Below, piece after piece: positions 56,301 through 64,000 of a stretch of DNA of 64,000 nucleotides (its first letter is position 1; each line of letters begins with the position of its first letter). The DNA lies in NCBI RefSeq assembly GCF_041381155.1, contig NC_091138.1:20399255-20463254 (forward strand). Direction: 5' to 3'. The notes beneath the pieces were generated by a model that saw only the letters and a list, made by a program, of their open reading frames with translations, searched no databases and was not told the origin of the DNA. This DNA is from Argopecten irradians. Its lineage: Eukaryota; Mollusca; Bivalvia; Pectinida; Pectinidae. A program made the translations under genes and the position numbers.

Positions 56301-59300
56301 TTTGGTGAGGTAGGTTAAAGGTCAGTCTGAGGTGTAACGGCCTTGTAGTAGCTGGTGGCTCCTCATAACATATGGAATCCAGTGTATCAGAAGTAGGTGA
56401 CTATCTCAATACTAGTCACACATGATTCCATTGTATTAACTTAGGAGAAATAAAAACACCTATTTATAAACCCTGAGAAACATTGATAGCTCCATAAGGT
56501 ATTGTTAATATGTGGCCACCTCTATGTATAGTTCTACAGAAGTTAGTGAAGGGTTATGATAACCAGTAAGTGAATGGTTTCAGTTTTCTCCACTTTACAA
56601 ATCAGGACAGTGTGCATTATTTTGTAAAAACACTTTGACACATTTGCTACCTAAATGAATGTAGAGTGGCACCACCTGGGATCATACTAGTAACGGGATT
56701 GGACTGGGTCTATCATCGGTGACCAGGTAGCTCAGTGGTAGAGCATTCAGCTAGCGTTCGGAGGTCCCAAGTTCAAATCCAGGTCTGGGCCCAGTTTCAT
56801 GAACATTTCTTAAATTTAAGGAATTCCTTAACTAATAATTCTCTTTAGATAAGCATTACAGATTTTAAGAAATGCTCCTTAACTTAAGATTTTTTCCTAA
56901 ACTTTGTAATGCTTTCCTATGTGGACATTTAAGGTAAGGAATTCCTTAAAGTTAAGGAATGTTCATGAAACTGTGCCCGGCCGCTATATTTTCTCCTCTC
57001 CTGTTACAAACCGGTGTCTTACTAGCCAATCTACTGATAAGAGATAAAGGGAAAATTCCATTAATATAGAGCTGGATGACGGTTTTATCAAGTTTACTCA
57101 AGCTATTATCCTACAATTTCTATTCCTATTTGTATTTCATCACAGGGACTTGGTGCCCACAACTTCTGCCGTAACCCTGACAATGAAGTGAGGCCCTGGT
57201 GCTGGGTAGATGCTGATAAAGTCCAGTTTGGTTACTGTCCACTGTTTCCCTGTACTGACCTTAGCCAGGAGGAAAACAACCCTGATGTACGAGGTACTAA
57301 ATATACTGTGACTTATAATGATAATACTACACACTCACATAACCTTCCCTGGTGAATCTACATATAGATCACTTCTTTTGCTTCAGAGTGTTATGAAGGA
57401 AATGGAGAAAATTATCGTGGGTCTGTGTCCAGGAAATGGAGAAAATTATCGTGGGTCTGTGTCCAGGACAATTAGAGGATCTGAATGCCAGAGATGGACT
57501 CAGTCGGTTCATATCAACCCTGATACATACCCAGATATGGTAAGTCTTATAACCTTGATACACACTGTAGTACTACCATGTAGCAAATAGCTAAATTGGT
57601 AGAGCATCTGACTAGTGTTTGGGGGTCCTGGGTTCAAAACCTGATTTGCCACTGCATTTTCACTTCTCCTGTTGCAGAATTGGCACCCATTAAATAACTT
57701 TTGTGGTAGTATATGGACGTGGTGTTGGACCCATGTGACCTGTATATATATTATAAGACTCTTTCATAAGTGGGTATGAAGGATAGGGAAATTCTACCCG
57801 AGGGTCACAAAATGTAGTAAAACCCGAGGCTTGCCAAGGGTTTTGAAACATTTTGTGATCCCGAGGGTAGAATATCCCTATTCTTCATATCCACTTATAA
57901 AAAAGAGTATTTTTCTTTCATACCTCGACGTTTTATTGCAATTTTACAACAATAATATCCCCCCATTTTGAAAAAAAATAGGAGAAATCCACAACTGGAA
58001 GTCAATTTTCCAAACATGAAAATAACGTGATATTTTCAACAAAAATTCCGTTGCTTGCATCTATTATAGTAAAACTAGAAGATTTTGTGAAAAAAAATTG
58101 TTAAAATTTGACTGAGGAAATAGAGATTTTGTTGACGCCGTGACGTCACGAGGCTTTATTGCATGGGTAGCCATACAATACAGCCTCAGGCGACATGAGT
58201 GTATTGCCCTAGACCAGCCAGTATTACACTTGTAAGTATGGAAATATGTTATAGGGTCTCGGGGATCATAACTTGTGCCGTAACCCGGACAAGTCGACAA
58301 GACCATGGTGTTTGACTGATGTGACCTGTATATATATAATATGTTGTAGGATCTGGGGGATCATAACTTGTGTCGTAACCCTGACAAGTCGGCCAGACTG
58401 TGGTACTGGACCAATGTGACCTGTATATATATAATATGTTGTAGGGTCTGGGGGATCATAACTTGTGTCGTAACCCTGACAAGTCGACCAGACTGTGGTA
58501 CTGGACCGATGTGACCTGTATATATATAATATGTTGTAGGGTCTGGGGGATCATAACTTGTGTCGTAACCCTGACAAGTCGGCCAGACTGTGGTACTGGA
58601 CCAATGTGACCTGTATATATATAATATGTTGTAGGGTCTGGGGGATCATAACTTGTGTCGTAACCCTGACAAGTCGGCCAGACCGTGGTACTGGACCGAT
58701 GTGACCTGTATATATATAATATGTTGTTAGGGTCTCTGGGGGATCATAACTTGTGTCGTAACCCTGACAAGTCGGCCAGACCGTGGTGCTGGACCGATGT
58801 GACCTGTATATATATAATATGTTGTAGGGTCTGGGGGATCATAACTTGTGTTGTAACCCTGACAAGTCGGCCAGACCGTGGTGCTGGACCAATGTGACCT
58901 GTATATATAATATGTTGTAGGGTCTGGGGGATCATAACTTGTGTCGTAACCCTGATAAGTCGGCCAGACTGTGGTACTGGACCAATGTGACCTGTATATA
59001 TAATATGTTGTAGGGTCTGGGGGATCATAACTTGTGTCGTAACCCTGACAAGTCGGCCAGACCGTGGTGCTGGACCAATGTGACCTGTATATATATAATA
59101 TGTTGTAGGGTCTGGGGGATCATAACTTGTGTCGTAACCCTGACAAGTCGGCCAGACCGTGGTACTGGACCGATGTGACCTGTATATATATAATATGTTG
59201 TAGGGTCTGGGGGATCATAACTTGTGTCGTAACCCTGACAAGTCGGCCAGACCGTGGTACTGGACCAATGTGACCTGTATATATATAATATGTTGTAGGG

Positions 59301-64000: not shown

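Follow-up and report, generated by a model that had tools for sequence, protein, structure and literature searches.

A 95-bp tandem array carrying a 3' splice site and the start of a kringle exon in a protease gene of Argopecten irradians

The host protease gene and its 95-bp array

The window analysed here is a stretch of 64,000 nucleotides (C5:20399255-20463254) of the 846-Mb Argopecten irradians genome. Its numbering was continued ("ext") through the 80 kb to its right (L009-L016), so that L009 position 2234 is ext 66234. From about 44.2 to 132 kb, the plus strand carries a gene, about 88 kb long, with exons for SRCR, C-type-lectin-like pieces, kringle 1, a broken kringle 2, PAN, LDLa, more SRCR, a SUEL lectin and trypsin. 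Fourteen exon pieces were run against Pfam and the other exons were assigned by eye; one C-type-lectin-like piece scored 16.8 bits, below its cut-off, and the other had no Pfam match. We take the gene to resemble the Neurotrypsin/PRSS12-like kringle-SRCR-trypsin proteases: the kringle-SRCR-trypsin combination is common to both, but the host gene also has C-type-lectin-like, PAN, LDLa and SUEL lectin exons. An inverted paralog with SRCR, C-type-lectin-like, LDLa and PAN pieces and one two-exon kringle (30.0 bits, below the Pfam Kringle cut-off of 34.3 bits, and 41.6 bits) lies on the minus strand between about 16 and 4 kb. By eye only, reading frames that look like those of transposons (gypsy-like, Tc1/mariner-like and LINE-like) were noted at window 27088-32146, at 19053-19757 on the minus strand and at L016 2465-5103.

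Table 1. Positions of the features discussed (window or ext numbering unless a chromosome is given)
Feature	Position	Strand	Remarks
Paralog kringle second-half exon	9435..9542	-	41.6 bits; nearest to the 95-bp unit among those compared
Two-copy 73-bp duplication across paralog SRCR1b exon end and donor	14878..15024	-	small junction repeat (TRF)
Intron nearly filled by 26-bp array	47169..53721 (TRF 47198-53682)	+	unit is SRCR1b 3' end plus donor; 203 junction 18-mers
K1a, kringle 1 first-half exon, 119 nt	56152..56270	+	Pfam Kringle 32.7 bits, just below cut-off 34.3
K1b, kringle 1 second-half exon, intact	57146..57293	+	Pfam Kringle 41.4 bits
K2a, kringle 2 first-half exon, donor phase 0	57387..57539	+	34-bp out-of-frame tandem duplication at 57397-57468
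Decayed K2b-like sequence	57677..57770	+	tail TGGACCxATGTGACCTGTATATATAT common to array units
95-bp tandem array (acceptor plus kringle second-half exon start)	58243..64000, on to ext 66234	+	TRF, Pfam
Junction arrays in second gene	C13:36498001-36508000 and 36523001-36533000		62-bp acceptor array beside fn3-like exon, 95-bp array nested
Second 95-bp-unit array	C13 about 36507025-36523870	-	about 176 copies, genome-wide pattern search

Within the window the array has a period of 95 bp, 60.6 copies and 96% matches (TRF), in agreement with the preliminary description, which had counted about 60 tandem copies. The limits given there (58251-64000) had to be moved: the array starts 8 bp earlier and ends 2,234 bp past the window edge. 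With L009-L016 added, the whole C5 array comprises 84.0 copies in this one assembly. To its right follow a 40-bp array, a 36-bp array and then exons. The 36-bp array (L009 3975-6806) contains 79 copies of a unit with GTGAGTGCAG, donor-like beside acceptor-like, and is open in several frames, up to about 345 codons. Directly before the 95-bp array, at window 57780-58240, is a foldback-like element, part of which seems by eye to recur at 15247-15362. Two predicted tRNA genes (Ala AGC and Thr AGT), perhaps tRNA-derived repeats, occupy kringle introns at window 56721-56792 and 57580-57653.

Each 95-bp unit consists of an acceptor, TATATATATAATATGTTGTAG|GG, and the initial 72-73 nt of a kringle second-half exon. 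Its translation matched Pfam Kringle over profile positions 48-76 of 79 (28.8 bits, E 1.5e-6; below the cut-off, as a fragment may be), and its local alignment with K1b scored 90, against a mean of 32.5 and a maximum of 49 in 300 shuffles. These data uphold the earlier reading of the unit as a 3' splice site plus a truncated kringle exon. The unit aligns across the junction both to K1b (61/90 identities) and to the paralog kringle second exon (67/91) and so spans an exon-intron boundary; the paralog is the closest of the three sequences compared, the third being the decayed copy at 57677. Because the paralog exon carries the WT[D/N]VT motif after which the unit ends, this motif of the unit is kringle sequence. 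The unit falls short of a complete kringle domain with its cysteines, both in the profile positions covered and in having Tyr for Cys. As described earlier, it is in the correct phase after the preceding exon: unit and K2a donor are both phase 0. The amendment needed here is that K2a itself contains an out-of-frame duplication, which may reflect the assembly or an allele.

The preliminary description had expected either a full exon beyond the window or the end of the gene. Neither was found: PAN, LDLa, SRCR, SUEL lectin and trypsin exons of the same gene lie beyond the array, and neither the window nor the 80 kb to its right yielded a complete kringle 2 second half, nor the right edge of the array a kringle 3' half. 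A genome search gave at least 61 kringle matches (a lower bound, with 150 of 237 candidates scored), none of them on C5 beyond the window. On the candidates scored and the 80 kb covered, we rejected a full kringle exon downstream.

In a crude matrix built on 27 authentic sites, the unit acceptor scored 6.6, close to the authentic median of 6.4; 16 of the 27 scored lower, and 3.4% of random AGs reach 6.6. Its pyrimidine share, 0.47, equals the lowest among these sites and marks a weak tract. Because the score is like that of authentic sites, unit acceptors might on sequence grounds be used in splicing. When K1b was joined to PAN1 at the best-looking acceptor (70968), TAA was the first complete codon, and the candidate at 70975, which has no stop, is in a different phase. 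Since the joins give a stop or the wrong phase, the host gene could be damaged at the array or could carry an unseen exon there.

Splice junctions multiplied across the host gene

We examined 57 placeable junctions (30 donors and 27 acceptors) by searching the adjoining intron for their 18-mers with ≤3 mismatches. We found that six were multiplied in their own intron, in 12-203 copies: the donors of SRCR1b (203), SRCR5a (73), TRY1 (63) and SRCR7a (12), and the acceptors of SRCR8b (129) and TRY3 (38). An authentic exon adjoins each of these six arrays. The PAN1 donor had one copy in its own intron and the other 50 junctions none, and reversed 18-mers, used as a control, gave 0 matches for 57/57 junctions. 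The copies of the SRCR1b donor bear out the earlier statement that intron 4 multiplies donors. Within the 26-bp unit of that intron (window 47198-53682, about 250 units) are two AG|GT sites, ACAG|GTATGT and GTAG|GTATAA, which resemble a string of recursive splice sites.

The rest of the 144 kb contained no match for 52 of the 57 18-mers. The six multiplied junctions had 0 or 1 there (SRCR7a, 1), the SRCR9a acceptor had 1, and the SRCR2a, SRCR3a and SRCR8a donors, which resemble arrayed SRCR ends, had 23, 12 and 13. Because the multiplied 18-mers are nearly absent elsewhere, donor arrays can be placed on the 3' side of the exon that they copy and acceptor arrays on the 5' side of theirs, the arrangement expected if the true exon has to remain intact. 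Genome-wide, the SRCR5a-type donor-end pattern gave 33 matches, the dense ones in the host gene and the rest single or about 3 kb apart. The SRCR6a and SRCR7b junctions look array-derived by eye but fail the 18-mer test; likewise, 13 of the 20 arrays of the host gene fail the strict junction test, and a few of these look junction-derived by eye. A 34-bp array (L015 7916-9041, ext 131916-133041) contains the end of the last trypsin exon, with its stop codon, and runs on into the 3' region.

Arrays detected by TRF cover 73% of positions 44,000-132,500, against 9.5% of 1-44,000, 4% of 132,500-144,000 and 14% of the paralog region (window 4000-16000, minus strand). Among 38 other kringle and SRCR loci (124 kb), all those cut out from two family searches and hence with several overlaps and no random sampling, the cover was 4.4%, with a median of 1.3% and a maximum of 33.5%. 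It is possible that the paralog represents the state of the array-filled gene before its arrays arose.

A second array on C13 and variation among units

A genome-wide search for the 95-bp unit gave 84 matches on the forward strand and 176 on the reverse, and the reversed-pattern control gave 0 and 0; all matches listed were on C5 or C13. We infer that the 176 reverse matches all belong to the C13 array, because the length of that array fits. The C13 array is flanked on either side by a block of a 62-bp array. The 62-bp unit joins an acceptor to the beginning of an fn3-like exon, and the exon itself is at the far end of the 62-bp array. In this second host gene the fn3-like exon scored 18.6 bits (cut-off 25), and a signal-peptide-like exon was recognised by eye. 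When the C13 flanks (20 kb) were compared with the C5 stretch, the only matches apart from the array itself were two unrelated ones, at ext 133.6 kb and 34 kb (E 1e-8). Since the flanks differ and the host gene is fn3-like, we rejected the C13 array as a piece of a simple gene duplicate. The 74-bp junction unit gave 124 matches and the trypsin junction unit 59, with 0 on the reverse strand for both, and the 62-bp unit gave 119, all reverse. The trypsin unit occurred only in its own array region, and the 74-bp and 62-bp units likewise among the matches listed; thus, of the four units tested, only the 95-bp unit was seen on two chromosomes.

Variation was assessed in 83 units from C5 and in 134 from C13; the 134 make up about three quarters of the C13 array. 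The TAC/TGC and GAC/GAT variants described earlier are present but not alone: there are six common variant sites, the same six on C5 and C13, all transitions. Their frequencies agree between the arrays at five sites and differ at site 26 (0.17 on C5 vs 0.06 on C13, p 0.019). Linkage is weak, the top r2 being 0.08 among site pairs with p <0.05, and the two arrays have no common order of unit types beyond chance. Because frequencies are alike, linkage is weak and a common order is missing, the pattern fits frequent recombination among units together with transfer of many units, in keeping with the gene-conversion-like mixing proposed earlier. A transfer with unit order kept was rejected, as the runs of unit types common to both arrays do not exceed chance. 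The transfer of units would presumably have gone from C5 to C13. The suggestion of higher-order units found some footing on C5, in a weak lag-3 excess (0.20 vs 0.17, the 95% point that shuffles gave for the largest value across 20 lags), and none in the longest C13 stretch (76 units; largest value 0.20 vs 0.25).

Neither variant classes nor codon positions revealed coding constraint on the units. Read in the kringle frame, all but one of the six common variants alter the amino acid, 29 of the 41 distinct variants (0.71) are nonsynonymous against 0.77 expected without constraint, and the third codon position varies least. We therefore rejected coding selection on the units; their variation also disfavours a coding use. 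Tyr replaces the kringle Cys in 72/83 C5 and 115/134 C13 units (86-87%). Successive 73-nt copies are separated by a 22-nt GT...AG interval, and no frame of the joined copies is open beyond 35 aa, which led us to reject a coding chain of 73-nt exons with 22-nt introns. The units, truncated and unconstrained, also differ from a mutually exclusive exon cluster, which consists of full exon copies under coding constraint.

Origin of the array and its relation to mirages

Could the array be a functional cluster of acceptors, some of whose units serve as alternative or poison exons that lower or diversify the protease mRNA? The acceptor score within the authentic range, the correct phase and the 22-nt GT...AG intervals would all suit such a role. 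We nevertheless regard it as very unlikely, given units free of coding constraint, stops reached within 35 aa, a pyrimidine share level with the lowest authentic site and the same array in an unrelated gene on C13. This last finding favours a satellite nature. The preliminary description had reasoned that the array would be a plain satellite if it lacked both a downstream full-length kringle exon and spliced reads into any unit, and the extension to the right bears out the part about the exon.

An ordinary satellite with no link to junctions, in which random intronic segments expanded and this one included an exon start by chance, is also unlikely. Six junction arrays among 20 (seven counting the 95-bp array) stand against 1.0-1.5 expected if ancestral introns measured 1.5-1 kb, an assumed length (P 0.0003-0.002). 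The excess over the length share depends on that assumption: with 0.5-kb introns 3.0 would be expected, and the six hits would not be clearly in excess (P 0.06 vs 0.002 at 1 kb). The 13 arrays that fail the junction test also speak for chance expansion. We give hardly any credence to an assembly artefact, whether an inflated array or a mis-join that created the presence on two chromosomes. The similar variant frequencies at five of six sites speak for such an artefact, but the arrays share no run of unit types beyond chance, and the C13 array has distinct flanks and edges and sits inside a 62-bp array that has an exon of its own as anchor.

The closest known parallel is in amphioxus, where, in the parts of the literature available to us, mirages are described as minisatellite-like tandem duplications of exon-intron boundaries in Adh3, the globins BflGb6 and BflGb9, PGBD5 and troponin C, with RT-PCR suggesting undisturbed regular splicing (PMC3087553, PMC3902484, citing Canestro et al. 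2002). As far as those parts describe them, mirages share with the host-gene arrays a unit that crosses the splice junction, an occurrence at both 5' and 3' boundaries, and concerted evolution with the edge units excepted. The globin and PGBD5 mirages have about 2-7 copies, whereas here 12-203 copies occur per junction at 6/57 junctions of one gene (PMC3087553, PMC3902484). The 95-bp array further differs from the mirages covered there in that its authentic exon is missing and that a second chromosome carries it as well. In segmental duplications of the human genome, internal tandem repeats at exon-intron boundaries are likewise boundary minisatellites and can, in the portion of the source available, create new introns and isoforms; they average about 4 copies of 30 bp and have transcript evidence, whereas the present arrays have far more copies (PMC2812944). 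The gigantic introns of Drosophila Y genes resemble those of the host gene in being filled largely with tandem repeats, but the part of that source available to us gives no account of them as copies of their own splice junctions (PMC6508621).

Our results make it probable that the 95-bp array is an orphaned, mirage-like splice-junction minisatellite, presumably derived from the lost second exon of kringle 2, expanded, homogenised and not translated. We call it orphaned, not a strict mirage, because its exon is gone; a point against the mirage reading is that no authentic exon abuts it, unlike the other six junction arrays. In its workings the array is like a mirage, and it probably arose as mirages do. 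The seed would have been a tandem duplication that took in the acceptor and the opening 72-73 nt of a second exon, presumably that of K2. Slippage or unequal crossing-over may then have raised it to 84 copies within the intron, while recombination among the units homogenised them. The remainder of the K2 second exon would have been lost and K2a broken, and a block of units would have been placed in the fn3-like gene on C13. The array would remain untranslated and most likely be removed with the 13.4-kb intron; it is most likely inert intronic DNA under concerted evolution. More speculatively, and with only a small chance in our estimation, splice junctions of transcribed genes of this genome may be preferred birthplaces of minisatellites, through seeding tied to splicing or transcription (e.g. 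R-loops at exon ends). The 95-bp array would then be a junction repeat that turned into a mobile satellite and entered the junction repeat of another gene.

In the literature searched, which was covered in part and proves no absence, we found no other mirage-like gene of this size. Compared with the few genes and few copies described in the available amphioxus sources, one protease gene of about 88 kb here has junction repeats of 12 to 203 copies at six junctions. Its paralog has a two-copy junction repeat, and one array of the gene is orphaned and common to another chromosome. The gene offers a test bed for how the spliceosome chooses the right site among dozens of copies, for the growth or origin of introns from junction duplications, and for the turning of coding exons into satellites.
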